This document shows, piece by piece, positions 1 through 22,439 of a stretch of 64,000 bases of DNA (positions are counted from its first letter, which is position 1; each line of letters starts with the position of its first letter). Position numbers and translations under genes: made by a program. The notes beneath the pieces are model-generated. The model saw only the letters and a list, made by a program, of their open reading frames with translations. It was not told the origin of the DNA and searched no databases. Source of the stretch: Pontibacter burrus (GTDB taxonomy: Bacteria > Bacteroidota > Bacteroidia > Cytophagales > Hymenobacteraceae); the NCBI RefSeq assembly GCF_010686685.1, contig NZ_JAAGWD010000002.1, forward strand, positions 248,001-312,000, read 5' to 3'.

Positions 1-793
1 GCAAAGTTTCATTGCGCATGCTCTCAGGGGGTTCCTTTACTGTTAATGGTTCATCAACATCTAGGAGTAGCATCAAAAGGAGCTGTGCTTCCTCTGTATC
101 TGGCCTGATTTGAGCCATGTTGAAATCTGGCGTTAGATCAATTAACTGATCATGATCAATTGTTCCCTTCTCTAAGCAGTTAAAGAATAATTGCTTATTA
201 GGGGCTGATATGTTTTTATCGAAAGCAGTTGCAAGTTCCTCCCCACTTACTTTTTGATTCTCCCGCTTTGCAGTTCTTCTATAAATACCCATTGGCTGCC
301 CCTTGTCATTGATGGGTTCTTCAATCAAACCAATCTGACGTAATGAGCCTATATAATACTGGCCAAAGACTCCAGAATCATATTGCCAGTAGGTGCCTAC
401 AGTAGAGCCATCTGCATTGTATGTACCTGTATTCAGGTTAAACTCGGCTAAGTTCTCATTTAATCTGTGAGTGGCGTATAGGCTTCCGGATATACCAAGA
501 ATTTCGGACTTAGCTGCAATAAGGGCAATGATGTATTCTGCCTTGCGTATAAAAGCTTTCTGCTCCTTAGGGTCGGAGCTCTTAATTCGTTTTGCGTACT
601 CAGCCAGAAGCCAGCAATAGAAGCTGTAGTTTCTAATCCGACCGGTAACATTGTTAAGTCCAGGAAGGAGGTATGAATAAGCTTGAGCAGAAGGGTTTTG
701 TAATCCTAAAGGGTCTAAGCCTATAACAAAGCTCATTTTGTCTCCGAAAAATGGGAGCCTAGCCTCGTTCTTATCTAGTACTTTTGTAGCCAT
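1..793 (-). CDS. Unrecognised protein, 3' end outside window (partial)
   Basis: An open frame runs from ATG at 793 (first residues MATKVLDKNEARLPFF) to the window edge, giving at least 264 residues without a stop. It contains a conserved-looking segment around residues 38-62 with the pattern LLPGLNNVTGRIRNYSFYCWLL, which reads like the start of a domain rather than noise. No catalytic motif is visible in this part and I cannot name a family. It lies downstream of, and on the same strand as, the large helicase protein at 963-6833. The gap is 169 bp and holds a 48-bp perfect palindrome. The two may be partners in one defence locus, but co-transcription is uncertain because the palindrome could terminate the helicase transcript. 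Confidence 0.75.
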   Translation of the reverse strand, partial: MATKVLDKNEARLPFFGDKMSFVIGLDPLGLQNPSAQAYSYLLPGLNNVTGRIRNYSFYCWLLAEYAKRIKSSDPKEQKAFIRKAEYIIALIAAKSEILGISGSLYATHRLNENLAEFNLNTGTYNADGSTVGTYWQYDSGVFGQYYIGSLRQIGLIEEPINDKGQPMGIYRRTAKRENQKVSGEELATAFDKNISAPNKQLFFNCLEKGTIDHDQLIDLTPDFNMAQIRPDTEEAQLLLMLLLDVDEPLTVKEPPESMRNETL

Positions 794-881
794 AAGTATG
801 TTTTCTTGTTTGCTGATATCCAGTAAGCTTTAACATCATTTTGATCTACTGAACAGGTTATTCATGCATTCAATTTTATGT

Positions 882-929
882 AATAACTACTTGAGAGCTG
901 AAGGATCCTTCAGCTCTCAAGTAGTTATT
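882..929. repeat. 48-bp perfect palindrome between the two leftmost genes
   Basis: The left arm (882-905, beginning AATAACTACTTGAGAGC) and the right arm (906-929) are exact reverse complements with no spacer. It begins 33 bp past the stop of the helicase gene and ends 89 bp upstream of the next start. No T-run follows on either strand, so it is not a textbook intrinsic terminator. It could be a terminator of the loose type seen in Bacteroidota, a cruciform, or a protein-binding site. Confidence 0.9.
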
Positions 930-962
930 GGACAGTCATATGTAGATTAAAATTTGAGGGTA

Positions 963-3900
963 TCAATCCGCCAAAATCAGTCTTTCATTATCCTCAAGGG
1001 CGTATCCTAGCCTTACAGCATGCTCAATGCCAGAGGTCATGGCCATTTCCACATTGGTACCTAAACGGGCATAGCCAAAAAGTTTAGAGGTTTCGCGTAT
1101 TAAGTCACTTTTTGGCAGACTTATCTGGTTGATTAGAATTTCCCTGATACCATTAGCAATTTCTTCAGGAGGCAAATCATCGGCTTCTCTCTTCTGAGTT
1201 TCCTGAACACTTACTCTAAAAGATGCATACGACTCAGGACTTTGCTCTTCTGTCCATAGAATTACACTTTTGCCCAGCTGTGTCTTATTAATAGGTAACT
1301 CTGAAAACAAGCTCTCTAAATGAGCATTTACTCTTGATCCATTTCGTGAAATACCCCAGGCCGCCAGCACACGCTTACACAACAGATTTTGGCTTATAGG
1401 GGATTCTGTGGTTAACACTTGCATAATCTGCTGTGCTATTTTATCACGGTTCCAAGGCTGCAGGAAGTCATCAGAAGAACTGGTTAGGACAGACTCAAGT
1501 TGACAAACTTCATAGGGAAGTGCAGCCGTAGCACAAGAAACTTCAGTAACAACATCAACATCCCCAACCTCCTCCATGAGGGGAGATGAGCCGAAGTTGA
1601 TGCTTTTGAGCATCGGCTCACTATAGGAATGGGTAGTAGTGCTACTAGTTTCAACCTTTGGGTTGAAGAGCGTGTCTCTTTGTTCTTCAGCCTGTTTAAC
1701 TGCCAAAAGAATATCACTGACTGTCTTTTGTGGGTTTTCCCACCAATCAATTGACCACACTTTATGTATGTTCCAGCCAAGTAGACGTAGTACATCAGCT
1801 TGCACAATTTCACGATCCCTTGATGTTTTGGCGCTAAAGTAATTATGCCCATCACAGAGTACTCCCAGTATATATTCAGCAGGGTTTGCCGGATTAATTA
1901 TTCCGATATCGATTTTATAGTCAGAGCATCCGATGGCTGTGTGAACTTCGTATCCACACTTCCTGATCTCTTCAGCTATAGCATGCTCAAACGATAGCTC
2001 CTTACCGGCTGTGAGTACTGAGCGACCAGGTAGAGCTGACTTTCCTTTTTCTGCGTAGGCCAGGAAACCTTTCAGGCCGGCTACTCCTTCCGAAGCCGTG
2101 CGGGTAATGTCTATTTGGTCTGAGCGTAGGGTAGAGAAGACTTTCATTTCATAACGTGCCCTGGAGACAGCCACATTCAACCTGCGCCAGCCGCCTTCAC
2201 GGTTAATAGGACCGAAGTTAAGACTTACCTTACCGTGTTTATCGGGGCCATATCCGATAGAGAATAGTATTACATCGCGTTCGTCACCCTGAACATTCTC
2301 CAAATTTTTGATGAACAACGGCTCTTCGCTTTCCAAGGCAATTGACTCCAGCTCAGGTCTTGCTTTGAATACCTCATTGAGTAAATCTTCAATTAGGTTT
2401 TGCTGTACCACGCTGAAAGTGACGATGCCGATACTTTTTTGCGCTAATACCGGGTCTGACAGGCGCTGAATGACTTCATCGATAATGGCTTTTGCCTCCT
2501 CTAGGTTTTGACGGGTCTTACCTTTGTCATAGTACCCTTCAACTGCTACATGCTGTACTTTGGTAGTAATGTCATCTGTTGAAGGGAAAGTGAGTAGCTG
2601 ATTGTCATAGTACTTAGCATTACTAAAAGCAATAAGGCTTTCGTGCTTGCTTCTGTAATGCCACAATAAATAGTGAGATGGCATAGACAAAGCCAGGCAA
2701 TCATCGAGGATACTCTCCAGATCTTCCAGTTCTATATTGTCCTCATCAATGGCGTTGGACCCGAAGAAGCTGGTAGGCGGCATTTGTTTAGGATCTCCGA
2801 CCACAATAACGTTTGTGCCTCGGGCTATTGCTCCAACCGCTTCACAGGTTGGCATCTGTGAGGCTTCGTCAAAAATGACTAAGTCAAACTTAGTGGAGTT
2901 GACATCGAAGTACTGGGCTACAGAGATAGGGCTCATCAGCATGCACGGGCAAAGGCGAGGCAATAAATTAGGAATGGAGTCGAAAAGCTTTCGTATGGAG
3001 GTAGCCCGACCATTGTTCCTGATATTTCGCTGTAGGATACCTATCTCAGAACTCTGAGAGGCCTCCTGTGCAAAGGAAGGTATTTTGGCAGCTAGACGGG
3101 CATAAAGTTCTTCTTTAGTCAATTGTTCAAAGCTCTTGCTCAATTCTTTGAACTTCTTGATTTTCTCTTCAAACAGTTTTCCGTTGAAAGCTGAAAGCTG
3201 TGGTTCTTGATCGATGATATATTCTGAGCAGGCGCGGTAAAGGCTTTTCTTGAAACAAAGCCCTACTTCTTCGGTAGCTATGCTACCGTTTTCATAAAAG
3301 GTAATGAGAGGCTCCAAACCAATCGCTATTGCCTTCTCCCTTATCTGAAGCCAGTTAATCCAATCCCGAACCTCGTCGATGGCACTCATCCATCTATCAA
3401 CATAAACTAAGTTATTCGTTACCCAATGAGCATCTTGTACTTTAAGCCCCTTAAAGTCGATCCCCAAAAGCCGTTGTAGCTCGCTCTCTTTTTGCCCAAT
3501 CTCGTGGAAGAGTTGCTGCAAGCTTGTTAATTTTCTTTCATGGAAGGTAAAGTAAACCTTACTTCCCTCTCCAAATTCGCCAGCCAGGGCATTTCGCCAT
3601 TCTTTAGATTTGGATGCTGTGTTGAGCGTGATTCCTTTTCGGTTGATCTCGATTAGAATATTGCAAATTTCAATCAGGCTGTCCCAGTTGCAGGTCTCAT
3701 TCTGCCAAAGAAAGCCTAACAGTTGTGGCAGGTGGGTTGCCTTCTCAATTGATTCGTGCTCGGCCTGATACGCTATAATTTGTTTTAGAATATCGGGTAC
3801 TTCCTGCTTTGCTAAGGTTCCTGTTGAGCTATGCTTCTTCAAATCCTTGGCAATAGAAGCTTGTTTCAGAAACTTAGGGAGAAACCACTGCTGATTGGCT

Positions 3901-6833
3901 ATCGTCCAGCACTGTAAAGCCTGTTCCGCGGAAAACTCAAGAACTGACTTGCTGAACTTTTGGAGTAACTGTTGCTTTAAGGCATCTCTTTGCTTGCCAT
4001 GAGCAGCCAACCCTATTACCTGGGACAAGCTCTGCTCCACATTTTCTACATTCAGAAGGGATGCAGGAATATCAGGCAGGCGGAGGAAAAGTGCAGTCAA
4101 TTGAACCAGGTCTTCAGCCTCTTCTCGGCTTTTAAGTTGAGGATTTACTTTTAGAATACCACATATGGAGGTCATCTCTTCCTGGTATCGGAGAAGCAGA
4201 TTTTTGTAGCTATCGATAATCTGACGTGCATCGCCCTTTAACTGTTGGGCATACTGCTTTACCTGCACCGCCTCCAGTGGGTGCTGGTAGGGGTGTCCAC
4301 ATACAGAGCCAATCACCTGTATCTGATCAACGATATCCTGCCACTCTGTGAGCTTAGATGGATTCAGGTGTTCTAACTGTGCTGGAGTAAATGTGAGGTT
4401 ATCCTGTGCCTGGCCCAGTTGGCTGTATTGAGAGAAAGCATCGAAGAGTGAGAATCCAAACCTGTGCTTTTTGTGGAGAGCTTGTACATAATCATTCAGT
4501 TCCGATCGAGTAGCCAAAAGCCGTTCAGCTTCCGATTCAAAGTTCTGAGGCGATGTTTTACGATTTATTTCCGATGCCCTCTTCAATTGTTCCAGAACGG
4601 CAGACTTCTTTGATTTGTTGGAGTGGAGTTCCAGACAAAATGCACCTATGCCAATAGACTCTAAACGATTTTCTACAACCTCCAGAGCTGCTTTTTTGGC
4701 GGAAACAAAAAGCACTTTTTTGCCTGCATATAAAGCATTTGCAATAATGTTGGTGATAGTCTGGGACTTTCCCGTGCCAGGAGGGCCATGCAGTACAAAA
4801 CTTTTACCCTGTGCTGAGTTCAGTATAGCCTCAAGCTGTGAGGAATCTGTACTAATTGGCAGGGCAACTTCAGTAGGATGCAATTCAGTATCGAGGACTT
4901 TTACTTCATGAGTTGTTTCCGGTTGCCACTCCAGCATTCCTGAGATAAGGCTCTTTACAATTTTGTTTTCACTTAGTTTATCGGCATTGTAGTGAATGTC
5001 ATTCCAAAGGATAAACTTGCTAAAAGAAAAAGTACCCAAGAGTGCCTGTTCTTCCACATCCCATCGTGAATGGGACATAATACCTTTTCTGATAGTATTG
5101 AAGACGAGCTTCACATCTACGCCACTTTCGTCTTTAGGGAGATTTTCCAATCCTCCGATATTGATCCCGAAGTCCTGGCGAAGCATTTCCAAAAGTGTAA
5201 TGTTCATCATTGTTTCCTCCTCCCGGCTGCGTATCACATAGCCCTTTTGTGCAGACTTTCGAATGATCTCTACTGGCAATAGCAGGATAGGGGCGTAACG
5301 CGGACGCTCGCTGGCCGGAGTTTCATACCATTTCAGGAGTCCTAGGGCAATGTAGAGCGTATTGGCTCCGTTCTCTTCGATAGCTTGGCGTGAACTTCGA
5401 TAAATGCTGGTAATACTGTGCTGTAACTCTGTTTCGGTGAGATAGGAGCGAAGTCTCTTTTGTGTAAACTCATACTTTACTAGGTCAACAATTGGATCGG
5501 ACTGATGTAGTGCCTGGTAAATGCCAGTATTACGAAGGGGGGGTTCCCAATCAGCTGGCTTTGAAAGAATCTGAAACTCCTTACCATCGGCCAGGCTGTC
5601 TTCGAACTGGCTAAGGTTAATTGTTATTAACTGAAGGGTGCTCTTTGTTAGCCTGATATTCAATAGATTGTTTCGAAGCGTCAGGTCCAGGAGCTTTCTT
5701 TCCCAAAGACGTTGTTTAGAGACTTTAATCTGTTCCACCTCAGGCACCTCAACACCAGCTGTTAAAGCTTCGGGTGCATCGTTCTTGCGTTCTTTCAGAG
5801 GTTCTACCTCCACAATTTCCCAGCCATCAGAGGTGTGAACTCTGAGAGGCAAAGGCCTGATGCCGCTAAAGCGGGTGCGATGAATGTCAACAAACAAGCC
5901 AAATTCATCATCTTTCTTCATATGATGGTTGGCAGCTGCTGACGCTGCGTCGAACGAAACAGGCCTTCCTGCATTCATACTGGTCGCCTCTACCAAGACT
6001 ATTTCATTGATGCCGTCTGCAGTTCGCTTTGTTAGCAGAGAAGGATCATCATTGACAGGATCTGCAAAAGACTCTTCGATAAGCCACCCACCGACAAAGG
6101 CATGGCCTTTGGTAAATATCAACAGAGGATAAATACCAACCGCCTCCAGACAAGCGGCATAGAGTAAGGAGATATCCAGGCAGTTAGCGAGCTTATGGGT
6201 GAAAATGGTGTCACACATTCTGATGCGCTGGCCGTTTTCCTCAAAGCTGGCAGGAACACTGCAATAGACAATTTCTAAACTGGCAATAGCTTCATATAGT
6301 GCCGCCATCTGCTTTCGCACCCTGTCTGGGTTTCTGCTTTGATATTCATCAAATGAAGGGCTTCCTGTCCACCTTTCAAGAATGGTAGCGGCCTTTGAAA
6401 TGATTTTCGAGATCTGCGCATGGTTGGGAGTGACAAAAGCGGCTATCATTTCAGGTAGTATAGCCGCGCCGCTCCATTGGTCATATGCCAAAACAGAAAC
6501 AGGATAACTACCTGTGAATAGAATATTACTTTCTGATGTAATATTGAGCGTGAAGTTCCCTAATATTTTCTCAGAAAGATTAGACAAATAGGAGGATGAC
6601 ACTTTTAAATGAACAGCATCGAGCTCAAAACTCTCTCCTGCCTTCAATACATCAACTCGGTGCTCCCATGCTGTAATGAAATCCGGATCACTTGTTAGTT
6701 TAATGGAAATATTTCTAATGTCGAGCTCACTAGTGTTCTTTATCAATATCTTGCGAACAACCGATACGTGGTTTTGTTGCATGGCATAATTGATGAAAGG
6801 TGAGTATATAAACTCAATTTCTAAAGATGTCAT
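963..6833 (-). CDS. DUF4011-helicase-Vsr-like defence protein with transglutaminase-like N-terminus (Hhe-like)
   Basis: This 1,956-residue multidomain protein is read as follows. After an N-terminal beta-rich region, residues ~205-280 look like a transglutaminase-type fold, with Cys in ANCLDISLLYA, His in KGHAFVGGW and an acidic residue in LVEATSM. DUF4011 follows at ~372-400 (LWERKLLDLTLRNNLLN). The superfamily 1 helicase has Walker A HGPPGTGKSQT at ~681, Walker B VIFDEASQMP at ~1,317, then VVGDPKQMPP, NVQGDERD and LNVAVSRAR. A Vsr/MTES_1575-like nuclease segment lies at ~1,612-1,705 (DYKIDIGI, LGVLCDGHNY, LGWNIHKVWS). The C-terminus, from ~1,815, resembles DUF3320. DUF4011-helicase-Vsr proteins are a described antiphage type (Hhe); that this one acts against phage is inference. 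Length and frame are intact. Confidence 0.88.
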   Translation of the reverse strand: MTSLEIEFIYSPFINYAMQQNHVSVVRKILIKNTSELDIRNISIKLTSDPDFITAWEHRVDVLKAGESFELDAVHLKVSSSYLSNLSEKILGNFTLNITSESNILFTGSYPVSVLAYDQWSGAAILPEMIAAFVTPNHAQISKIISKAATILERWTGSPSFDEYQSRNPDRVRKQMAALYEAIASLEIVYCSVPASFEENGQRIRMCDTIFTHKLANCLDISLLYAACLEAVGIYPLLIFTKGHAFVGGWLIEESFADPVNDDPSLLTKRTADGINEIVLVEATSMNAGRPVSFDAASAAANHHMKKDDEFGLFVDIHRTRFSGIRPLPLRVHTSDGWEIVEVEPLKERKNDAPEALTAGVEVPEVEQIKVSKQRLWERKLLDLTLRNNLLNIRLTKSTLQLITINLSQFEDSLADGKEFQILSKPADWEPPLRNTGIYQALHQSDPIVDLVKYEFTQKRLRSYLTETELQHSITSIYRSSRQAIEENGANTLYIALGLLKWYETPASERPRYAPILLLPVEIIRKSAQKGYVIRSREEETMMNITLLEMLRQDFGINIGGLENLPKDESGVDVKLVFNTIRKGIMSHSRWDVEEQALLGTFSFSKFILWNDIHYNADKLSENKIVKSLISGMLEWQPETTHEVKVLDTELHPTEVALPISTDSSQLEAILNSAQGKSFVLHGPPGTGKSQTITNIIANALYAGKKVLFVSAKKAALEVVENRLESIGIGAFCLELHSNKSKKSAVLEQLKRASEINRKTSPQNFESEAERLLATRSELNDYVQALHKKHRFGFSLFDAFSQYSQLGQAQDNLTFTPAQLEHLNPSKLTEWQDIVDQIQVIGSVCGHPYQHPLEAVQVKQYAQQLKGDARQIIDSYKNLLLRYQEEMTSICGILKVNPQLKSREEAEDLVQLTALFLRLPDIPASLLNVENVEQSLSQVIGLAAHGKQRDALKQQLLQKFSKSVLEFSAEQALQCWTIANQQWFLPKFLKQASIAKDLKKHSSTGTLAKQEVPDILKQIIAYQAEHESIEKATHLPQLLGFLWQNETCNWDSLIEICNILIEINRKGITLNTASKSKEWRNALAGEFGEGSKVYFTFHERKLTSLQQLFHEIGQKESELQRLLGIDFKGLKVQDAHWVTNNLVYVDRWMSAIDEVRDWINWLQIREKAIAIGLEPLITFYENGSIATEEVGLCFKKSLYRACSEYIIDQEPQLSAFNGKLFEEKIKKFKELSKSFEQLTKEELYARLAAKIPSFAQEASQSSEIGILQRNIRNNGRATSIRKLFDSIPNLLPRLCPCMLMSPISVAQYFDVNSTKFDLVIFDEASQMPTCEAVGAIARGTNVIVVGDPKQMPPTSFFGSNAIDEDNIELEDLESILDDCLALSMPSHYLLWHYRSKHESLIAFSNAKYYDNQLLTFPSTDDITTKVQHVAVEGYYDKGKTRQNLEEAKAIIDEVIQRLSDPVLAQKSIGIVTFSVVQQNLIEDLLNEVFKARPELESIALESEEPLFIKNLENVQGDERDVILFSIGYGPDKHGKVSLNFGPINREGGWRRLNVAVSRARYEMKVFSTLRSDQIDITRTASEGVAGLKGFLAYAEKGKSALPGRSVLTAGKELSFEHAIAEEIRKCGYEVHTAIGCSDYKIDIGIINPANPAEYILGVLCDGHNYFSAKTSRDREIVQADVLRLLGWNIHKVWSIDWWENPQKTVSDILLAVKQAEEQRDTLFNPKVETSSTTTHSYSEPMLKSINFGSSPLMEEVGDVDVVTEVSCATAALPYEVCQLESVLTSSSDDFLQPWNRDKIAQQIMQVLTTESPISQNLLCKRVLAAWGISRNGSRVNAHLESLFSELPINKTQLGKSVILWTEEQSPESYASFRVSVQETQKREADDLPPEEIANGIREILINQISLPKSDLIRETSKLFGYARLGTNVEMAMTSGIEHAVRLGYALEDNERLILAD

Positions 6834-7118
6834 TTAGTATGTAGAATATTAGTTGTAGATCTTGGATTACTTTATTGATAATTTTAATTATTTTATATCT
6901 TAATTACAACAATTTATATATCTATTTTAACATATTTAATAGTTGGAATTGAGGTTTGTGAGGAGGAGGGGATAGTTTTTTAGCGAGAAGAAATAACTCT
7001 ATATTTATGCTTTATTTCTTATTAATAGCTTATTGAATTTGTGAAAAACCTTTACAATATTGTTTTATACAATATCGTGATTATTGCAGTAGAGAATAAA
7101 ATTTAGTATATTAAGTAT
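6834..7118. promoter_or_regulatory. AT-rich divergent intergenic region with TACAATAT direct repeats
   Basis: This 285-bp very AT-rich stretch separates the divergent helicase and XRE genes and must carry both promoters. TACAATAT occurs twice in direct orientation at 7,053-7,060 and 7,068-7,075, about 45 bp before the XRE start, and could be an operator. No gene is visible in it. Confidence 0.4.
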
Positions 7119-7529
7119 ATGGAAACAGCAGACAGAAAACGACCGATCCACCTGGGGGACCACGTGCGAAGAATGCGTACAGCTTTGGGAGTGAAGCAAT
7201 CCGCATTGGCCAATGAACTGGGCACCACTCAGCAGAACATTTCGCGAATCGAGCAAGAGGAGGAGGTGGATGATGCGATGCTGAATAAAATTGCTAGCGC
7301 TCTTGGAGTAACAGCAGAAGCTATTAAAAATTTTAGTGAAGATGGGGACGTGTTTAACATCCAGCATATGCAGGGACATGCTTCTGCTGGTAGTAGTTTC
7401 AACCAATGTACCTTCAATCCATTGGATAAGTTAATTGAGGTAATGGATGAAAATAAAAAGCTCTACGAGCGCTTACTGGCAAGCGAACGGGAGAAAATCG
7501 AAATCTTGAAACAGCAGAAGAACTCTTAG
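7119..7529 (+). CDS. XRE-family HTH regulator with C-terminal coiled coil
   Basis: This is a 136-residue DNA-binding protein. Residues ~12-70 form a Cro/CI-type helix-turn-helix (GDHVRRMRTALGVKQSALANELGTTQQNISRIEQ). A linker follows, then a charged helix near the C-terminus (LDKLIEVMDENKKLYERLLASEREK) that is probably a dimerisation coiled coil. The architecture is common among Bacteroidota regulators in accessory regions. It diverges from the large helicase gene across a 285-bp AT-rich region, so it may control that gene as well as itself. That role is inferred from position only. Confidence 0.85.
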   Translation: METADRKRPIHLGDHVRRMRTALGVKQSALANELGTTQQNISRIEQEEEVDDAMLNKIASALGVTAEAIKNFSEDGDVFNIQHMQGHASAGSSFNQCTFNPLDKLIEVMDENKKLYERLLASEREKIEILKQQKNS

Positions 7530-7618
7530 CTGTTAATGCATAATAAAGGTAGATAAGTAGTCCATACTAAACCACTTTTCTACTTTATACAGGACCATAC
7601 TCAACGCTTATACTGCAG

Positions 7619-8020
7619 TTACAGATCAGAATCTTTAGCCTCTAATTGCCTGATTCTTCTATCTTTCTCATTTGGGTCAAGATGATAAACGGAATCTACC
7701 CAACGGCCTGTGTTTGGGTAAGTTTGCCGGATCATCCAGTACCTGACATCGCTTTCCCGCAACCTGCTGTTCTCCCGGTGCAGGCTTATGCAAAGTCCTT
7801 CTGAAATAGCAGTTACCAGCAAACACACAATTCCCCCGATCACAAAGCTCTTAGACTTATCCTCGAAATGGTGGTGCCGGACGGGCAGCACCTTCGGCAG
7901 CTTGGTGATCGTCTCCCGGAAGGAGGCGATCTGGGCATAGATCTGCAAGGCCTGCGCGCTCAGCTCATGCAGTTTAAAGAGTGCCTTCAGCTCCTCAAAC
8001 TTGCTGCTGCAATCAGGCAC
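7619..8020 (-). CDS. Mobilisation-locus membrane protein, single TM segment
   Basis: This 133-residue protein has an N-terminal helical region, then a hydrophobic segment around residues 58-77 (FVIGGIVCLLVTAISEGLCI), followed by HRENSRLRESDVRYWMIRQTYP and an acidic tail. Proteins with this layout sit beside mobC/relaxase genes in Bacteroidota mobilisable elements. Here it follows a mobC-like remnant, overlapping it by a few bases. The relaxase expected nearby is missing. The exact function is unknown; it may anchor or stabilise a relaxosome. The frame is intact although its neighbours are decayed. Confidence 0.6.
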   Translation of the reverse strand: MPDCSSKFEELKALFKLHELSAQALQIYAQIASFRETITKLPKVLPVRHHHFEDKSKSFVIGGIVCLLVTAISEGLCISLHRENSRLRESDVRYWMIRQTYPNTGRWVDSVYHLDPNEKDRRIRQLEAKDSDL

Positions 8021-8248
8021 CGGTGCTGCCTGTGGCGGAGTCGGTGCAGTCCCTTCTTCGAGTTTTTCCAGCCGCCGCCCGGAACCAGGCCGACAGGCTC
8101 ATGCCTGCTTCCCGAGCCTTGCCTGTCACCAGCAGCCGTTCGGTTTCCGTAACCCGCACCACGAGCGTGCAGCTGCGCTTTACCGGTTTGGGGGGCGCCC
8201 GCCCTTTCTTTTTTCCTGGCTTTGTTGCCTGGCCTGTCCTGTTTCCAT
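8013..8248 (-). pseudogene. mobC-like relaxosome accessory protein, frameshifted
   Basis: The segment reading RSCTLVVRVTETERLLVTG then KAREAGMSLSAWFRAAA is the ribbon-helix-helix core typical of MobC-type plasmid mobilisation proteins, which bind oriT DNA with the relaxase. A natural start at ATG 8,248 gives METGQARQQSQEKRKGGRPP in one frame, while the core lies in another. A one-base frameshift in the C-rich run near 8,190-8,200 joins them. The end overlaps the next gene by 8 bp, an operon-like arrangement. An assembly error in the homopolymer is the alternative to true decay. Confidence 0.6.
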
Positions 8249-8399
8249 CTGCTTGCTTCTTTACTAAATAAGAAGGAATTCCTGCTGCGACCACCGGGAG
8301 TTGGAGGGGAGGCCCAGGGCAGGGAAGAGGTTTTTGTATGACAAAAACACAAACTTGCTCCCTGCACCTACGAGCATTCCCCGGCAGCGCCCTTACAGG

Positions 8400-8890
8400 C
8401 GTAGCCGGTGGCGATTTGCCTGCCGCTGCCCCGACAACAGGTATGCGTTCACGTCTTTGTAACCACAGTAGAGGGCAGAGACATCCTGGAATTTCAGCTC
8501 CGAGCGTAGAAGCCGCTCGGTCACCTTTCGGCCGGGTCATAGTTTAGGAACAGCAGCACCTGCCTGTGCCCGCCTAGCACCTCCAGACCCTTGCCCAACT
8601 AGGTGAGGGAGTTAAGAACCAGAAAGCTGGCGTTATCCTTCAGGTGAGGCCAGAGCTTCAGGAGGGACAAAAATCCATGAACCCTCCAGCAGGCAGATGG
8701 TGTTAGTGCCGCGGTCGATGAAGGTGACTTCCTTAGGGGATGAGGAGCCCTTGAACCAGGCGTTGCGCAACTCGCAACCCCCGAGTGGTTCCCGAATCCC
8801 ACGGCCGTATACTGCCTGGCGTTGATGGAGAAGCTTATTTCCTCCCGAACCGGCAATAACATGCTGTTTGTATAGTTGGCTCTGAGGCAA
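8400..8890 (-). pseudogene. Toprim-domain primase-like protein, decayed by several frameshifts and an amber codon
   Basis: Pieces of one protein are readable in alternating frames. They are INARQYTAVGFGN (~8,800-8,830), GCELRNAWFKGSSSPKEVTFI (~8,715-8,780), TICLLEG then DFLSLLKLWPHLKDNASFLVLNSLT (~8,600-8,700), an in-frame TAG at 8,597-8,599, LGKGLEVLGGHRQVLLFLNYDPA (to ~8,540), and after another shift KVTERLLRSELKFQDVSALY. The order, and the toprim-like acidic motifs (LLEG, DPA), match the toprim proteins of Bacteroidota mobilisable elements. At least three frameshifts plus one stop make a functional product very unlikely. It precedes the mobC-like remnant, as expected for a mobilisation locus. 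Confidence 0.65.
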
Positions 8891-8915
8891 CAAAAAAGCC
8901 CTTATAATTAATCCG

Positions 8916-9440
8916 ATGCTCAACATGAAGAGCCATGCCAATGATTGCAACAACAACGACTACATCATTGGCCTGGACTTTAACCTAAAAAAGCTATTAA
9001 AGCGTGACTCAAGGATGGATAGTGACTGTATTACCACCATGCCCATACGTAGTGCCGCGGACTGGGGCTCCATCAGTGCTATCCCTGGCGCAGCAGCACC
9101 AGACATAATACCGCTTCCTGAAGGTCATGTAGTAAAGCACCCGAAACTGATCAACGGCCTGGCTGATCAGTTCATCGAGTATTATGAGCACCACCTGAAT
9201 AAGACCTTTATCTTTATCCAAGACTCAGAGTGGGGGAATGCCCGCAGGCCTGACGCAGATCTTACCTATAACGAACAGTTTGCTGAGCGTCTGAGCAAGG
9301 CCCGATGGACTGTGCAGATCGTGAACATGGGCAGAGTGCCACGGCACCAGACCAGGTACCACCTGGCGCATGAGTTCCTGGGGGAGAAGGATAAGGGCAC
9401 AAAAAAACAGCGTACCGGTTGGAAACGCTGTTTTTGGTGA
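8916..9440 (+). pseudogene. Phage terminase large-subunit remnant (nuclease domain)
   Basis: The start (YIIGLDFN) resembles the first acidic motif of the RNase H-like nuclease domain of phage large terminases. The later segment VKHPKLINGLADQFIEYYEHH, NKTFIFIQDSEWG and TYNEQFAERLSKARWTVQIVN with RHQTRYHLAHEFLG matches the rest of that domain. The middle, ~8,985-9,125, is out of register and reads as unrelated sequence, so at least two frameshifts are likely. The ATPase half is absent. The open frame runs through a hairpin at 9,403-9,435, showing that the original 3' end is lost. It is the leftmost recognisable piece of the decayed prophage. Confidence 0.55.
9403..9435. terminator. Hairpin terminator, bidirectional
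   Basis: The arms AAAAACAGCGT and ACGCTGTTTTT enclose an 11-base loop, with A-rich and T-rich flanks that would serve either strand. It falls within the open frame of the terminase remnant. No gene is visible in the 240 bp between here and the next gene. Confidence 0.7.
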
Positions 9441-9677
9441 AAAACTTTGAGACTAGGTTTTACCGAGGTTATTAAATGTAACGGACGTGTCTTGCCAAAG
9501 GCAGAGGGGATTGCGAACTGATGGCAATGGTTGATTAAAATGTAGAGGTAACCTATAGCAAAAATGACAAGGTTTTGGTAAAGTTATGTAAAATGACATT
9601 TCCGTTCATTCTTTGCTTACAGCTAATCAACTTATGAATAACAAAATAGGAATTTGCTTGTTAAGGTGGGTTTTATA

Positions 9678-10520
9678 TTAATTCCTGATTTTTAATCTAC
9701 GCCATTTATCTTTTAAGTCGTATTCTTCAATTGCTTTGTCATAAGTAAAGCCAACTGGGTCTTCAGCAGAAATATTAACATTGAAGAAAACATATTCAGG
9801 TTCATACTGTAAGTAAATTTCTTCAATATCTTTTGTCTTAATATAGAAGGCTAATTTCTCTTGCGGTTTCCAAGGTTTTGATTTTGTAACCTGTCTCTTA
9901 AAGCCTGATTCCCAGTCTTTTGAACTCTCAAGAGCTTTATCCTTAAAGATAACTTGTAGTTTACCTACTATTTCAGCACTAGTTAAGGTCTTATCAGTAT
10001 TATTGATAACATTCCCCTTCATAACATAGACTATATCTTTAGATTTGTCTCTCATATAGTAGCTTTTTTTACTTTCGAGTTTCAAGGTGTCTATTGTGAT
10101 GTCAGTTATTTTAAATTTTCCGTCATTATCTAGACGAGAAAAACCATACTTTCTACTTAAGTACGGATTGACATTAATATGTCTAACTATTTGTTGATCA
10201 AGTGTTACTTCCCATTTGTGTCCCCAACCACTCTGGTCAGCAAATGATACTATATAGATACCTTCTTCTTCTGTCTTCTTAGAGGACCAATCATACTTTG
10301 TATTCGAGTCCTCCTTTGCTATCATATTTGCAAAGTCAAGCCAAGTTGCATCTGCAGTCAACCCTGCCAAAGAAAGACTCAATTGTCCCCAAATATTTGT
10401 TGCGTCAAGTTGAACCTTTGCTGATTTGCAGGTTTCAATAGCTTTACTTTCCTTGCTTATGAGCAGGTCACAAGAAGTTAATAGGGTTACTAGCACGAAG
10501 GTTTGTATTAATTGTCTCAT
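9678..10520 (-). CDS. Lipoprotein of unknown function
   Basis: The start is placed at ATG 10,520, because the sequence MRQLIQTFVLVTLLTSC is a clean lipoprotein signal with lipobox LLTSC. The open frame upstream of it reads as non-signal sequence. The mature part (about 263 residues) has a beta-rich C-terminal half with KFKITDITIDTLKL and KGNVINNTDKTLTSAEIVGKLQVIFKD. This resembles FxLYD-type extracellular domains that describe non-covalently folded strands, though I am not certain. It probably resides in the outer or inner membrane facing the periplasm. Base composition is AT-rich compared with the prophage fragments on both sides, suggesting separate acquisition. Confidence 0.7.
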   Translation of the reverse strand: MRQLIQTFVLVTLLTSCDLLISKESKAIETCKSAKVQLDATNIWGQLSLSLAGLTADATWLDFANMIAKEDSNTKYDWSSKKTEEEGIYIVSFADQSGWGHKWEVTLDQQIVRHINVNPYLSRKYGFSRLDNDGKFKITDITIDTLKLESKKSYYMRDKSKDIVYVMKGNVINNTDKTLTSAEIVGKLQVIFKDKALESSKDWESGFKRQVTKSKPWKPQEKLAFYIKTKDIEEIYLQYEPEYVFFNVNISAEDPVGFTYDKAIEEYDLKDKWRRLKIRN

Positions 10521-10654
10521 TTTTGATAGGTTAATTAAATGTTGCATAATTACTGTACAAACGTAACTCACATAACGAATATACTATATATTATTAATTC
10601 TATACTAAGCCCCACAACGTAATTTTACTGTCTTTTTATTACCCCTATCATCTG

Positions 10655-11234
10655 ATGAAATTCGCTTCAGATAAGCAAGCGCATTATCAGGTTGAAGGAA
10701 GCTTTAGAGCTGATGGTGAAGCCAACAGAGCCGTTTTTTATCCGCTTGCTGCCTGCGATTGGAAGCGGGAGGAGGGTGGGTACTGGAGCACCTATGAGTT
10801 CGACGGCTGGCAGATGATCAACTTCCTGCTGGTGCTTATCATGGTGGATACCGTGACAGGCGTGTATGCTGCCTGGAAAACTTCTACATCCGGGGTTTAC
10901 TCCTTTAAGCTGCACTCCATATTCGAGAAGCTCTAGTGCTACTTTGTAGGCTTTGTGGTGGTGCATGTGCTCTCCAACCATTTAGTGGATGGCCAGCCGA
11001 ACCCTGCCATGATCCAGGTGGTGCCTTACTTTAAGGGGCTGATCTACTTCTTGATGCTGGGTGCCGAAGCCCTGAGCATAGACGAGAATGCCGCCATGGT
11101 AGGCCGTGGCTTTCTGCCTGCCTAGTTCTGGAAGAGGTACGAGAAAGTGAAGGAAGATGGCCCTGAGGCTTTTAAAGAAACTACAGTTGCGCCATACCCG
11201 GAGCAAACCGAAACTATAACCGAACAACTATAGC
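10655..11234 (+). pseudogene. Phage holin family protein interrupted by two in-frame TAG codons
   Basis: One uninterrupted frame, apart from two TAG codons (10,934-10,936 and 11,123-11,125), encodes a holin-like protein. A membrane segment NFLLVLIMVDTVTGVYAAWKT is followed by GVYSFKLHSIFEKL, stop, CYFVGFVVVHVLSNHL, and a further hydrophobic helix with GLIYFLMLGAEALSIDENAAM. After the second TAG comes a charged tail ending at TAG 11,232-11,234. Holins of this type form membrane lesions late in phage infection. No frameshift is needed, so two CAG-to-TAG changes suffice to explain its state. The start of the original gene is uncertain because residues before ~45 do not resemble the family. Confidence 0.65.
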
Positions 11235-11242
11235 CAAACCTT

Positions 11243-11661
11243 ATGAGATCACTTTTATACCTGCTGCTGGCCCTGTGCCTTTTTCCTGCAACCGCCACTT
11301 GCAACTGCAGGAAACTGTTGTGCCATTGGATAGCCTGCACATTACGCCTGAAGCCGAAACCGAACTGGCCAAGTATAAAATTAAACTTACGTCCATTAAA
11401 GATACGCATGTGCTGCTTACTCAGCCAAGCCCGAAGAAGGGGAAGACCAAGTATAAAAACATAGGCAATACCGATATAAAGCAGAAGGATGTAGGTAATG
11501 TGGATGTTGGTAAGAAAGCCGGCCAGCAGCATGATGTTGGGAATACTGTGATAAAGGATGTTGGGAAGGTAGAACCAACAAGCCAGAGCTATTGGTGGCT
11601 CTGGCTTATTGGTGCTTTAATTATTATAATCTACAAAGCAATTAAGTATTTGCGGATTTGA
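11243..11661 (+). pseudogene. Small membrane-anchored phage-associated protein, one frameshift
   Basis: It begins 8 bp after the holin. MRSLLYLLLALCLFPATAT is a signal-type N-terminus in one frame. From about 11,290 the continuation is in another frame (LQLQETVVPLDSLHITPEAE, then repeated DVGN/VGK units near 11,485-11,570), ending with a hydrophobic anchor SYWWLWLIGALIIIIYKAIKY. Signal, variable middle and C-terminal membrane helix directly after a holin suggest a lysis-cassette protein, but I see no defined spanin motif. A single-base indel would restore a product of about 139 residues, so a sequencing error is possible. Confidence 0.5.
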
Positions 11662-11854
11662 GTTTTAATATCTTTATTTACTATAAATACCTACTAAATG
11701 GTAATTAAACTAAACCATTAAATGCTAACTTTTACAAAACAATGGAGCTACAAATCTGTTATATAAACAAACAAAAAGCCTAATTAATAGTATAAAAGGT
11801 TAACATTTTAAATGTTAGTAAGCTATTGAGTAAAGTTTTTACCTTTGTAGAAAA

Positions 11855-12070
11855 ATGACAACAGCTTTAGTAATATTCTTCATTTGTGTACTGTTAATAG
11901 AAATGGCTATTATTTATAGTCCTCTCTATTATCTTTCTTACTCAGTACTTAAGCTGGATAAGAAAATAGGAGATTCTACATTAGTAGCAATCTTGATTGT
12001 GTTAACTCTTATCCTATCTGCACTTTTATTGAACAAGGCTTCTACACTAGCTTATCAATTATTTTTCTGA
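11855..12070 (+). CDS. Small protein with two predicted membrane helices
   Basis: This 71-residue, strongly hydrophobic ORF has helices at about residues 3-28 (ALVIFFICVLLIEMAIIYSPLYYL) and 43-66 (STLVAILIVLTLILSALLLN). It converges on the membrane protein gene at 12,055-13,089, and the two stop regions overlap by 16 bp. No family is recognised. The coding call rests on the clear two-helix pattern; an AT-rich chance ORF is possible. If real, it could be a membrane partner of the neighbouring PUA-like protein. Confidence 0.45.
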   Translation: MTTALVIFFICVLLIEMAIIYSPLYYLSYSVLKLDKKIGDSTLVAILIVLTLILSALLLNKASTLAYQLFF

Positions 12071-17052: not shown

Positions 17053-17108
17053 TTATTCGGCTCAAAGTATTCTGGTATTTGAGCCGAATAAATATTATAT
17101 TCGGCTCA
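17053..17108. promoter_or_regulatory. Three-site operator array overlapping the fic start codon
   Basis: TTATTCGGCTCAAA (17,053-17,066) and its exact reverse complement (17,078-17,091) form a 14-bp inverted repeat. A third copy, TATTCGGCTCA (17,098-17,108), runs into the ATG of the Fic gene at 17,108. The arrangement suggests repression by a dimeric regulator, plausibly the Fic protein itself through its C-terminal winged helix. Confidence 0.75.
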
Positions 17109-18211
17109 TGATCTACAATTGGCAACAACCCGACTGGCCTGAATTCAGGTATGATGTAAGCAAAGTAGAGGATATGCTTTTCGAGTTCGCAGCGCTGGCG
17201 GGCCATGTCGGAGGGATGTTGAAAGCCTTGCCTGAAGCGGTCCGGTTGGAAGCTGTGCTTGATACGATGGTGGCCGAGGCTATCAAAACGTCAGAAATCG
17301 AGGGCGAATACCTCAGCCGTCAGGACGTGGTTTCGTCTATTCGCAATAACCTCGGCCTTAACCAGACCCCTGAAGCAACAAAAGACAAAATGGCGCAAGG
17401 GGCTGGTGAACTGATGGCCGATGCCCGTAAAACCTATGCGGGGGCATTGACAGTGGAAAAGCTCTTCCAATGGCACACGATGCTTTTAAAGGAACAAAAA
17501 CGCATCCATGTCGGCATGTGGCGCAGCCATGAGGAACCCATGCAGGTTGTCTCAGGTGCGCTCGGCAAAGAAAAGGTGCATTTTGAGGCACCTCCCTCTG
17601 CCCGTATACCGGATGAAATGAGCAGGTTTATCCAATGGTTCAACCAGACAGCGCCGGGAGGAGACAAGGAGATCAGGAAAGGCCCGGTGAGGTCGGCAGT
17701 GGCACATTTGTATTTCGAGACTCTGCACCCGTTTGAGGATGGCAATGGCAGGATCGGGCGTGCCATTGCAGAAAAAGCTTTGTCGCAAACCTTAGGCCGG
17801 CCGGTGTTGCTGAGCCTTTCTAGGACCATAGAGGCAGACAAGCAGGCGTATTACAACGCCCTGGAGCAGGCCCAGAAAAATAACGACATCACCTCCTGGG
17901 TTATATACTTTGTTAGCGTTATATTAACCTCACAGCAACAGGCGATCAGCCTGATTGATTATATTCTGAAGAAATCGATGTTCTTTGACCAGTTCAGGGA
18001 CGCGCTGAATGAACGGCAGACAAAGGCTGTAAGAAGGATGTTTGACGCAGGGCCGGAGGGTTTTGAGGGAGGTATGAATGCCAGGAAGTATATGGGGATC
18101 ACCAAGACTTCCAAGGCAACGGCAACAAGGGATCTGCAGCAGTTGCTGGAACTGGGGGCGTTCATACAGGAAGGGGGCGGCCGGAGTACCTGCTATGTTT
18201 TAAATATTTAA
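17108..18211 (+). CDS. Fic family protein (DUF4172-Fic-winged helix)
   Basis: This intact 367-residue protein has an N-terminal DUF4172-like segment (WQQPDWPEFRYD). An inhibitory-helix motif TSEIEG follows at about residue 60 and fits the [S/T]xxxE[G/N] rule for self-inhibited Fic enzymes. The catalytic Fic motif HPFEDGNGRIGR lies at ~209-220. The C-terminal region (~300-367) reads as a winged helix (MGITKTSKATATRDLQQLLELGAF). Fic enzymes usually transfer AMP to a hydroxyl side chain of a target protein. Proteins of this layout also act as DNA-binding regulators of their own gene, which agrees with the three operator-like repeats around the start codon. Targets are unknown. It stands alone, with no separate antitoxin gene. 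Confidence 0.9.
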   Translation: MIYNWQQPDWPEFRYDVSKVEDMLFEFAALAGHVGGMLKALPEAVRLEAVLDTMVAEAIKTSEIEGEYLSRQDVVSSIRNNLGLNQTPEATKDKMAQGAGELMADARKTYAGALTVEKLFQWHTMLLKEQKRIHVGMWRSHEEPMQVVSGALGKEKVHFEAPPSARIPDEMSRFIQWFNQTAPGGDKEIRKGPVRSAVAHLYFETLHPFEDGNGRIGRAIAEKALSQTLGRPVLLSLSRTIEADKQAYYNALEQAQKNNDITSWVIYFVSVILTSQQQAISLIDYILKKSMFFDQFRDALNERQTKAVRRMFDAGPEGFEGGMNARKYMGITKTSKATATRDLQQLLELGAFIQEGGGRSTCYVLNI

Positions 18212-18340
18212 GCTTATAAATCTGGTGAAATCACCTTGCCCTTTTACGTCAGCGAACAACTAGCACCTACGGGGAATATTCCAGGAATTTAGTAGCAAGA
18301 AGCTGCCGTGCGGGGAGTGACTGGAGCGTAAAATATTAAT

Positions 18341-19060
18341 TTAATAGGCTGCGTAATGGGCCAAAACTCTTCTTAGTTTAATATCCAGCAGGAATATACC
18401 AATCTTGTCAAATTCTGGTGAAGTCACCGTCGGCCGGAAGAGAAAACACTCTTCGTTCAATACCTTTCCGATGACTTTGTCGATCGGGGCAGCTTCGTAA
18501 TAGAAGGCAGACAAATCGAGTGAATCTAGTTTTGCCTCCTGGTCCCCTGCATGGAAGCGGAAGAAGTTTCCGGCTCGCGTGACGCTTATGGTGTCTGCCG
18601 TCTGGAGCAGTTTTTTTGCTTCTGCCTCAGTTGGGTAAACACCGGCATAGGCGCCACGCTGGTAGCTAAATAGGGTGGTCCATAATGCAACGGCCACGTT
18701 GTTGCCCTTGTTTACAAAGGGCTCACATCCTACTGCGATGCAGCCGGATGTGGTGACCGCTGCCCTGGTTTCCCGGTCTGTGCCGTGGTATAACTGGGGG
18801 CTACCGACTCCTTTGAGTGTGGCTGAACCTGTAAAGTAATTGAAAGAGCCTGTTACAAAACTGCAGGACGGTACAAATACCCAGGCAGATAAAAGCACAT
18901 ACTTCCAAAGGCTGACCTTTTTGTTGAAGAGGTAGAAGCATATTCCCGTCCATAGCAAGATGCCAGATGAAAGTAACAGGAAAAGCCAGAACGTGGTCCA
19001 GGAGATGAGAACGCCTGTCTTCGCCCACGCTTTTGCTTTATTGTCAGCTTTTCGGGTCAT
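18341..19060 (-). CDS. Membrane protein of unknown function
   Basis: The 239-residue protein begins with a basic stretch, then two hydrophobic helices at about residues 15-45 (VLISWTTFWLFLLLSSGILLW) and 52-72 (WKYVLLSAWVFVPSCSFVTG). A soluble C-terminal part of about 165 residues contains two cysteines (SGCIAVGCEPF). No family is recognised. It stands alone between the Fic gene and a redoxin fragment. The 130 bp upstream towards the Fic gene contain nothing recognisable. Confidence 0.6.
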   Translation of the reverse strand: MTRKADNKAKAWAKTGVLISWTTFWLFLLLSSGILLWTGICFYLFNKKVSLWKYVLLSAWVFVPSCSFVTGSFNYFTGSATLKGVGSPQLYHGTDRETRAAVTTSGCIAVGCEPFVNKGNNVAVALWTTLFSYQRGAYAGVYPTEAEAKKLLQTADTISVTRAGNFFRFHAGDQEAKLDSLDLSAFYYEAAPIDKVIGKVLNEECFLFRPTVTSPEFDKIGIFLLDIKLRRVLAHYAAY

Positions 19061-19130
19061 GTCAGTTTAATAATGTTGGGCTTCCAATCCTCTTGTCCAA
19101 AAGGATGCGCAGTCTTTAACGGTCCCCTTT

Positions 19131-19262
19131 CTTAATGCCAGGAATGCAGGAAGTGCCGACAAATTGTATGTGGAGTATGCCATTGAGGCCCTTAAGCGTT
19201 ACAAAGGTCCGGAGGTTACTAACACCAAAGCTATAGACTGTTCCATCAAGTGGGCATCGTGA
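19131..19262 (+). pseudogene. C-terminal fragment of a redoxin/thioredoxin-family protein
   Basis: The frame reads NARNAGSADKLYVEYAIEAL, KRYKGPEVTNTKAIDCSIKW and a stop at 19,260-19,262. The ending (VEYAIEALxxGxxVxxxxTxAxxCSIKW) is the characteristic C-terminus of Bacteroidota thioredoxin-like redoxin proteins. Everything upstream, including the active-site CxxC, is missing. A good terminator follows at 19,283, so this is the intact 3' end of a deleted gene. Confidence 0.55.
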
Positions 19263-19282
19263 TGTTCCACTTATTTGTTACC

Positions 19283-19308
19283 GGCCATCCCCTGTGATGG
19301 CCTTTTTT
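19283..19308 (+). terminator. Intrinsic terminator after the redoxin fragment
   Basis: GGCCATC and GATGGCC arms with a 6-base loop are followed by TTTTTT. The remaining ~275 bp up to the hipA stop show no gene. Confidence 0.8.
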
Positions 19309-19585
19309 ATGGAGCAGGTACGGTTCGAGTTTCGGTGCGCCAGGCGCCGCCACCCACTTTACTGCGATAAGTTTACATTTTTTCAAGCCATGTTCGTTTA
19401 TGGTTTGATATACTATCGGTAAAATAGGTAACACAAATCTGTTGTGTGTATACTAATGTTTATTAGAATTTTGTTTAAAACCTCTTGATCAGGGATGACT
19501 ACGGGCGCTAATAATAATGCCTCTACCTTATTTAGCCCCGGTTTTCTGTTTAGTAGTAATAGCCAACTGTCTCATTAAAATCGAA

Positions 19586-20866
19586 TTAAACATCTTCTGC
19601 TCGCTGAAATGCGAGAGCTTTCAATTCCTGCTGTGCTTTTGAGATCCCGTACTTGGTTGCAATATCCCTCCAGCATCTGACAGCAGCTTTTACTTCTTCC
19701 TTAACTTCTTTGGCTCTTTCTTCCGTCAATCGAAAGTACTCGCTTACTTCCATTGCAAGGTCAAGGTCCAGCGCATTGTCATTATCAGATATGTTTAATT
19801 TCAATCCGCTACCATTTTCAACTGGGTTTATATCGTATGCTGGTGACAGTACCCAACCTCCCTCTGTTAACATAAATCCATGATTCCGAAGGTGATCATC
19901 CGTATTGGAAACACATATATGAAAGACTATTCTGCGCCAGAGCTCCTCAAGATCTCGATCTACGTTTGCGCCATTTGCTATAAGGAATTCAACCATTTCC
20001 AGATAGCTTGCCCCATCCTCATGGTCCTGGCCGTCTTTGTACCCTAACAATGTGATAGCCGAAGCAAAATGTATTCTTTCCCCGTTACTTGTTCGGTCGA
20101 ATCTCTTCGTTAAAAATGTGTAGTTGTCAGAAGAGAATTTTTGAGCTTTGGACTCGGCCATGTCTATACCGGCTGCAATGGCCAGTTCATAGGTGACAAT
20201 TTCCCACCCTCCAATATCTTCTTGATCGTTTCGACTTGGGAATTTTGCTATCCATAAGCCTCCGTCCTTATCTACAATGCTTGCTTTTGGCCGGGCTCCA
20301 CCTAGCGATGCTCCTGGCGCCACCAATATACTCAGCCATTTTAGATATTCTGGATCCTCGATCACGTCATCTTCTTCTAATCGTAAGCTGATCTGTTCTA
20401 ACTCGCGAAGAGAGGTCCAAGGAGGACTGGCCATTTCTCTGTTGTTGCTCATAAATGGACCATCTTCAGCTAATTTAAATCTGAGCGCACCCATCCTGTG
20501 GCCATCAAAAACACCTAAAAGATAATCTGTTTCAAACAGCTTCTGTTCGGGCCTTCTTTCTTTTCTAGCCATTGCTGCCTCACGTCTGCGCATCAATATC
20601 CGGCCCCATCTGTCCGGAGAAGAGTCTAGAAACATCCCGAAGTTTTCCTGTTCCTCATTTAAATAATGAAGACCCGCATACATTTTCAGGTTCGGATCCA
20701 GTAGCTGTGAAGGGCCGTTCTTTAGCCAGTCTTTATCATATTCGAAAGAGAATATCTCCTTTCCCTTCAATCTTTCAGAATGTAGCATTCCCATCAGCAT
20801 GGGGTCGTTCAATCCTTGCCAGTGGGCATATACAAGTAGTGACCTTTTATTTTCCTGCTTTGCCAT
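19586..20866 (-). CDS. hipA: HipA-type serine/threonine kinase toxin
   Basis: At 426 residues this matches full-length HipA. Visible elements are the N-terminal subdomain (GMFLDSSPDRWGRILMRRRE), the glycine-rich loop ASLGGARPKASI (~187-198), an ATP-site lysine in WIAKFP, SNTDDHLRNHGF with the catalytic aspartate (~318-329), and LSPAYDINP with the metal-binding Asp (~340). HipA kinases phosphorylate targets such as glutamyl-tRNA synthetase and halt growth until HipB is in excess; the target here is unknown. The frame is intact. Its ATG overlaps the last base of the hipB stop, an arrangement typical of toxin-antitoxin operons with antitoxin first. Confidence 0.92.
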   Translation of the reverse strand: MAKQENKRSLLVYAHWQGLNDPMLMGMLHSERLKGKEIFSFEYDKDWLKNGPSQLLDPNLKMYAGLHYLNEEQENFGMFLDSSPDRWGRILMRRREAAMARKERRPEQKLFETDYLLGVFDGHRMGALRFKLAEDGPFMSNNREMASPPWTSLRELEQISLRLEEDDVIEDPEYLKWLSILVAPGASLGGARPKASIVDKDGGLWIAKFPSRNDQEDIGGWEIVTYELAIAAGIDMAESKAQKFSSDNYTFLTKRFDRTSNGERIHFASAITLLGYKDGQDHEDGASYLEMVEFLIANGANVDRDLEELWRRIVFHICVSNTDDHLRNHGFMLTEGGWVLSPAYDINPVENGSGLKLNISDNDNALDLDLAMEVSEYFRLTEERAKEVKEEVKAAVRCWRDIATKYGISKAQQELKALAFQRAEDV

Positions 20867-21186: not shown

Positions 21187-21242
21187 AATGTTAAATATAA
21201 TTTGCAAATATACGTCTTTTTGTAAGTTATATTTAACATTAT
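21186..21242. promoter_or_regulatory. Operator of the hipBA operon
   Basis: TAATGTTAAATATAA (21,186-21,200) and its perfect reverse complement TTATATTTAACATTA (21,228-21,242) are separated by 27 bp. They lie at and just upstream of the hipB start. This is the expected layout for cooperative autorepression by HipB dimers. The -7/-33 promoter elements are not clear by eye. The remaining ~135 bp to 21,378 show nothing. Confidence 0.8.
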
Positions 21243-21378
21243 TAGGAATAAAGTACTTGTTGCAAATTTATAATCCATTCACACGACAAGATATGTCCAA
21301 GGGGTGCATGCTGCTGTGGTTTCTCCATATGAATTATGTGGTACAGAAAAGAATCACATGTGTATGAACATAAAGGGG

Positions 21379-22411: not shown

Positions 22412-22439
22412 TTGCGAACACCGTCTATTTGCGAACATA

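Follow-up and report, generated by a model that had tools for sequence, protein, structure and literature searches.

A giant protein encoded in the window, which is the whole 64,000-nucleotide stretch of Pontibacter burrus contig NZ_JAAGWD010000002.1 that was analysed, was assigned almost certainly to the ProA family of antiphage proteins, and its N-terminal part was modelled as an Ig-like domain followed by a transglutaminase (TGase)-like domain with a highly conserved Cys-His-Glu triad. Taken as a whole, the protein is best explained, with a good deal of confidence, as a ProA helicase-nuclease equipped with a predicted peptidase arm that may be licensed by DNA. It would then constitute a single-gene antiphage system within a chromosomal defence island.

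Family and domain layout of the protein

When scanned against NCBIfam (release 20), the protein scored 2301.5 bits with the model NF058533, "anti-phage protein ProA" (cut-off 1500), and the match ran from residue 15 to residue 1923 over model positions 1-1903 of 1903. At the level of this model, no difference between the protein and the family was visible along its whole length. The ProA cut-off was also passed by all nine plasmid relatives scanned; L043, the tenth plasmid relative fetched, lay outside that scan. The full-length score and the nine of nine relatives over the cut-off thus indicated that the protein is a regular ProA, an ordinary member of an already named defence family.

The sequence-only reading had described an Hhe-like protein with an added transglutaminase-like N-terminal domain. 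The C-terminal order that it gave, DUF4011, SF1 helicase, Vsr-like nuclease and DUF3320, was borne out, as DUF4011, AAA_11, AAA_12, MTES_1575 and DUF3320 all lay above their Pfam gathering scores (best 25 of 31 families). The Hhe identity was not. The core does align to the Hhe models, sharing DUF4011, the SF1 helicase and the Vsr-like nuclease with them, but it reached only 818.1 bits with NCBIfam NF042953 (cut-off 2000), whereas the ProA score exceeded its own cut-off; in PADLOC, the Hhe score was 593 bits. Moreover, neither of two Hhe proteins examined had a TGase or an Ig-like match, whereas the window protein has both domains. In the core tree described below, the two Hhe proteins grouped with TGase-less relatives (support 100), on a branch separate from that of the window protein, and the TGase domain was common to the protein's own clade. 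Filing as Hhe was ruled out by the score beneath the cut-off and by this placement, and a true Hhe protein carrying an added domain is highly improbable. The PADLOC candidate PDC-S37 matched the core better (1273 bits, residues 376-1942 against model positions 12-1535), but that model has 1550 positions and leaves the TGase part of the window protein uncovered.

The features of the protein and of its surroundings are listed in Table 1. Among 86 aligned TGase-bearing proteins, the window protein included, every position of the helicase Walker A motif (G683-S690) and the DEAS motif II were kept in 86/86. The putative nuclease residues were nearly as constant: D1642 in 84, D1661 in 85, and D1673 and R1674 in all 86. 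Median identity of 85 relatives to the window protein was 0.64 and 0.73 for the two helicase motor parts, which flank the insert at 0.33, 0.67 for DUF4011, 0.58 for the TGase domain, 0.54 for the nuclease, 0.45 for DUF3320 and 0.35 for the Ig-like domain; since the majority of the relatives had been selected for N-terminal similarity, the TGase value is favoured. According to PMC3710099, DUF3320 overlaps a winged helix.

Table 1. Features of the ProA gene and neighbouring elements (window positions; residues of the protein in parentheses)
Feature	Position	Strand	Basis or remark
ProA-family giant protein	963..6833	minus	ORF with ATG start, 1956 aa; NCBIfam NF058533
Ig-like mostly-beta sandwich domain	6483..6833 (1-117)	minus	AF2 model and structural matches
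Transglutaminase-like cysteine peptidase-fold domain	5814..6479 (119-340)	minus	AF2 model and VIA
Gln202, invariant	6228..6230	minus	95/95 relatives
Cys218, predicted nucleophile	6180..6182	minus	starts helix 218-231; 95/95 relatives
His244, predicted general base	6102..6104	minus	starts strand 244-250; 95/95 relatives, 80 of them found with a pattern holding the His
Glu282, predicted third triad residue	5988..5990	minus	just past strand 278-281; Glu in 94/95, Asp in 1/95
DUF4011	5181..5696 (380-551)	minus	Pfam PF13195, E 1.1e-49
Helicase, first motor part, AAA_11	4509..4850 (662-775)	minus	Walker A GPPGTGKS at 683-690
Variable insert inside helicase, 515 residues	2964..4508 (776-1290)	minus	median identity to window 0.33
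Helicase, second part	2133..2936 (1300-1567)	minus	DEAS motif II at 1322-1325; AAA_12 at 1379-1566
MTES_1575 Vsr-like nuclease	1707..1991 (1615-1709)	minus	Pfam PF18741, E 1.3e-27
DUF3320	1326..1472 (1788-1836)	minus	Pfam PF11784, E 1.3e-15
Perfect 24-bp inverted repeat, no spacer	882..929	.	repeat search
XRE regulator	7119-7529	divergent from ProA	right side of ProA
Four-gene run: protein of unknown function, 533 aa		minus	no Pfam or PADLOC match
Four-gene run: PLD-type protein, 971 aa		minus	weakly like ZacB/DrmC
Four-gene run: PDDEXK_4 nuclease		minus	PDC-S26
Four-gene run: protein of unknown function, 286 aa		minus	without matches

The N-terminal fold and its predicted catalytic triad

Residues 1-375 were modelled by AF2 from an alignment of 82 rows that excluded L088, L128 and L050, the last of which duplicates L049, and the model (pLDDT 90.4, pTM 0.85) comprised a mostly-beta Ig-like sandwich at residues 1-117 followed by an alpha/beta domain. 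In the sandwich, strands dominated and ten-residue pLDDT means ranged from 87 to 97. It matched parts of protein 4.2, factor XIII (FXIII) and TG3 outside their catalytic cores at Z 9.6-10.4, parts that we take to be Ig-like domains, and CARDB matches were found by Foldseek. The VIA rows of this two-domain model fell nearly all on residues 1-133, with a single row, PNGase, for the TGase part, and the latter was therefore modelled alone.

Modelled in this way, residues 119-340 reached pLDDT 92.5 and pTM 0.91. In Foldseek, E values were modest (best 6e-3, none below 0.001), but the matches formed a consistent set, with axonemal proteins, presumably TGase-like, putative bacterial cysteine proteases, PNGase, pseudomurein endoisopeptidases, TGases, LapG, Rad4/XPC and menin. 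VIA placed yeast PNGase first (Z 9.8, rmsd 3.8, 157 residues aligned), followed by a TGase (Z 9.2), TG2 (Z 8.7), Rad4/XPC (Z 7.9-8.6 over 143-162 residues, Rad4 best at 8.6) and LapG (Z 8.2), where Z below 8 may reflect just a common arrangement. TG3, FXIII and arylamine N-acetyltransferases were also among the structural matches of this domain, and the remaining VIA rows were presumably TGase-like or NAT-like folds. Sequence identity over 50 VIA rows, among the matches listed, was 6-17%. By structure comparison, then, the domain shares its fold with PNGase, LapG, TG2/TG3 and the pseudomurein endoisopeptidases; we know of no fusion of any of these to a helicase-nuclease.

Sequence profiles gave far fainter signals. 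With the window protein alone, Pfam detected no TGase family even at E values as high as 1, whereas Transglut_core was detected at that threshold in 45 of the 82 aligned rows (best 4.3e-4). Taken singly, ten relatives gave Transglut_core in five (12.8-17.5 bits, cut-off 23) and DUF553 in six (12.0-16.4 bits, cut-off 20.5), seven of the ten having one or the other and none rising above the cut-off. When PDB sequences were searched with profiles built from the N-terminal alignments, one run returned nothing and a second gave two matches (E 1.6-1.8), so PDB relatives of the N terminus came via structure comparison only. Given these weak scores, it is chiefly the structure model, together with the family alignment, that carries the TGase assignment, and on that footing residues 119-340 are predicted with near certainty to adopt a TGase fold. 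The papain-like fold expected earlier for this region therefore agreed with the model, and the expected profile similarity to transglutaminases appeared, below the cut-offs, in relatives and not in the window protein itself.

The motifs quoted in support of a triad were located at N217-C218-L219-D220, G243-H244...W250 and V281-E282-A283-T284. Conservation was assessed in 95 ProA-type relatives, composed of 80 from genomes, 4 from viral contigs and 11 from plasmids or whole genomes, which span Bacteroidota, Bacillota, Pseudomonadota, Cyanobacteriota and Ignavibacteriota; the set holds near-copies (L047/L049, and L009, seemingly the same record as L110). Cys218 and Glu282 were found in 80/80 genome relatives, Cys and His in 11/11 plasmid or whole-genome relatives (the acid being Glu in 10 and Asp in 1), and all three residues in 4/4 viral-contig relatives. 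The genome relatives were the best 80 of 563 and were found with a pattern that held the catalytic His, so that His conservation is biased in these and free of that bias in the other 15 only. Nearby, position 207 was Cys in just 23/80 genome relatives. The nearest named N-terminal relative, among the best 80 of 563, was from Pontibacter qinzhouensis. The near-absolute conservation of C218, H244 and E282 argues that the triad motif is not a chance occurrence.

The positions of these residues in the model point the same way. TGase cores carry Cys, His and an acidic residue in that order, with Cys at a helix start and His and the acid on the following strands. In the DSSP assignment, Cys218 opens helix 218-231, His244 opens strand 244-250 and Glu282 comes after strand 278-281, so that order and predicted placing fit this rule. 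The third triad residue of classical TGases is Asp, whereas Glu282 stands here. Gln202 is possibly an oxyanion-hole residue. From the model and the alignment, the TGase domain is probably catalytically active.

Two main rivals bear on this reading: a non-catalytic, Rad4-like role and another TGase-fold chemistry. Rad4/XPC and menin adopt the TGase fold without being enzymes, and the domain could likewise be a DNA- or protein-binding module, leaving the helicase-nuclease to act alone. The Rad4/XPC matches noted above, the presence of menin in the Foldseek list and the fusion to a DNA-handling motor all speak for such a module. Non-catalytic TGase folds such as Rad4, however, have lost the triad, whereas Cys, His, the acid and Gln are kept in all 95 relatives here. 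A Rad4-like role is thus disfavoured by the invariant triad and seems unlikely. Alternatively, the domain may be an active enzyme other than a peptidase, that is, a transglutaminase, deamidase, isopeptidase or amidase working on phage or host proteins. The matches to TG2/TG3, FXIII, PNGase (an amidase), pseudomurein endoisopeptidases and arylamine N-acetyltransferases would suit it, but no feature seen points to acyl transfer and the fold alone is indecisive; such an enzyme is not very likely. The chemistry toward which we lean is that of a peptidase, with a cross-linker, deamidase or amidase less favoured.

In Bacteroidota, four stand-alone proteins about 400-440 aa long (L034, L035, L036 and L184:3446-4639) matched the N-terminal region of ProA and carried Gln, Cys and His motifs like those of ProA. 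The first three begin with a hydrophobic stretch and are possibly exported. Three stand-alone proteins were counted apart from the 95 relatives: Cys and His were present in 3/3 and the acid was Glu in all three, the residues D, D and K in the acid column of one alignment being a misalignment. Such proteins are a possible source of the ProA N terminus.

Distribution of the TGase domain and a proposed model of ProA action

A tree of 78 helicase-nuclease cores was divided by one branch (SH-aLRT 95) into 50 TGase-bearing proteins and 28 TGase-less proteins, the latter including both Hhe proteins as well as an archaeal relative. The tree was built by a quick method with SH-aLRT supports only, is unrooted, and was flagged for long branches and uneven composition; it took every second long genome relative, left out relatives shorter than 1700 aa, and dropped L012, L016, L025, L032, L041, L128, L177, L181 and L050. 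With all 50 TGase-bearing proteins on one side, the domain marks the clade in which this protein sits and is not an addition in it alone. The tree requires no more than a single acquisition, or a single loss in the other lineage.

Within the family to which the window's genome belongs, 62 of 200 genomes held a protein over the ProA cut-off, and in 57 of these the match started at model position 337 or later, the TGase part being absent. The 1500-bit cut-off of NF058533 thus also admits proteins whose match begins past the TGase part. These TGase-less relatives, which retain the DUF4011-helicase-nuclease core, mostly had reading frames of about 1550-1750 aa. Twelve of the 57, together with one relative from a class-wide search, were sampled for the tree, where the sampled TGase-less relatives joined Hhe. 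Given that the twelve group with Hhe and not with TGase-bearing ProA, the name ProA may be over-applied. In the window's genus, the full form occurred in 4 of 50 genomes, in one of them across two contigs. The full form is therefore patchy, with a TGase-less majority in the family, a distribution that fits a mobile defence gene.

No TGase gene in trans was found near the TGase-less relatives in 13/13 loci searched about 4 to 10 kb to each side. Since TGase-less relatives are common and their flanks lack such a gene, the core can presumably work without the domain. A split form, with TGase and helicase in two genes, was considered for four relatives whose short ORFs lie inside the contig and not at its ends, and was rejected: L088, L109 and L112 resemble single genes that have been interrupted, and L113 resembles a truncated one. 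In the window's own genome, C11:850580-853711 also encodes a 1322-aa protein related to the helicase-nuclease core (525 bits). Similar core relatives of about 1300-1360 aa occur in most genomes of the genus, suggesting that they are vertically kept.

We propose that the DUF4011-SF1 helicase and the C-terminal winged-helix-like end would engage phage DNA or translocate on it, as their families suggest, and that the MTES_1575 Vsr-like nuclease, whose motifs are intact, would cut it. The Ig-like and TGase-fold module would supply a competent Cys-His-Glu cysteine peptidase, restrained at rest and licensed once the motor engages invading DNA. Acting as a second effector arm, the licensed peptidase would then cleave ProA itself or a protein of the phage or the host. 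That the peptidase arm is licensed by DNA is put forward tentatively. More tentatively still, engagement of phage DNA might unlock cleavage of a defined phage or host protein, with nuclease and protease arms coupled.

Cleavage could instead occur in cis, ProA cutting itself to free the helicase-nuclease or serving as its own maturation protease. The linker after the TGase domain (residues 341-379) is poorly conserved, with a median identity of 0.31 over 85 relatives, and its modelled part, up to residue 375, has low pLDDT, so that cleavage could take place there. Variation in linkers has many causes, however, and the start of TGase-less relatives near DUF4011 is compatible with such cleavage but does not demand it; self-cleavage of this kind is distinctly unlikely.

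To our knowledge, antiphage systems that combine a nucleic-acid motor with a protease on a single polypeptide are few. Should the TGase arm prove active, ProA would be a system in which the gating of proteolysis by DNA recognition can be tested, with the TGase-less relatives as natural controls. Under the proposed DNA-licensed scheme, the TGase-less sister group would correspond to the machine with its nuclease arm alone. The peptidase role is the interesting question in a protein that is otherwise an ordinary family member.

Precedents and genomic surroundings

Giant proteins that unite TGase, helicase, Vsr and wHTH parts and bear a HEPN domain are described in PMC3710099 (2013), with protein cleavage proposed as their action. 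The mechanism offered by the sequence-only reading, proteolytic activation or target cleavage upon phage sensing, is plausible, and a protein-cleaving arm had thus already been put forward in print for relatives. The MTES_1575-type giants of Microbacterium testaceum in that paper share with the window protein a TGase-like domain, an SF1 helicase, a Vsr-type REase and DUF3320/wHTH, all four being found here in one chain, but they start with a HEPN RNase, whereas the window protein starts with the Ig-like domain. No HEPN match was present among the best 25 of 31 Pfam rows for the window protein, and its model shows a beta sandwich at residues 1-117 with the TGase domain next. L182, a plasmid relative from Microbacterium chocolatum, carried a homologous TGase domain (HMM E 2.4e-45) with the same Cys, His and Glu-Thr-Thr motifs; its gene is in pieces in the record and matched the Ig-like part weakly. 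By analogy with this genus-mate, MTES_1575 itself probably carries a homologous TGase domain.

Searches by domain names and neighbours gave nothing nearer than this 2013 HEPN paper. No antiphage ProA was found in the literature among the matches listed, and PMC9122589, on BREX, has the word ProA twice. In DefensePredictor (PMC13092281), a term search gave no hit for ProA, transglutaminase, DUF4011, DUF3320 or Hhe, and one passage concerned a different peptidase.

To the left of ProA lie, all in minus orientation, the four-gene run of Table 1 (window 1-793 and L006:13413-19993 of genome C22, left of the window) and, beyond it, a type I R-M system. The run is possibly an uncharacterised defence cassette. 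The inverted repeat separates ProA from this left operon, its near end lying about 33 bases beyond the ProA stop codon, and it is possibly a terminator. A consensus terminator scan did not pick up this repeat, and promoter and terminator scans gave no more than in shuffled sequence. Rfam had no match in window positions 1-12000, and no tRNA or tmRNA was found in the window.

No conserved neighbourhood was detected: for each of eleven island genes (Fic and AbiEi not among them), no more than 3 of the 83 relatives had it nearby, in a test that looked for close homologues of the window-side genes and in which flanks were short on some contigs. The absence of a partner gene among those tested is in keeping with ProA being a stand-alone gene. 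Further right, window positions 17108-26347 encode a Fic protein, a HipA-like protein, an AbiEi/AbiEii pair and a tyrosine recombinase, and are the probable edge of a mobile island. Two genes were recognised by eye, one for a RadC-like protein at 21379-21969 and gyrB, outside the island, at 30619-32583.
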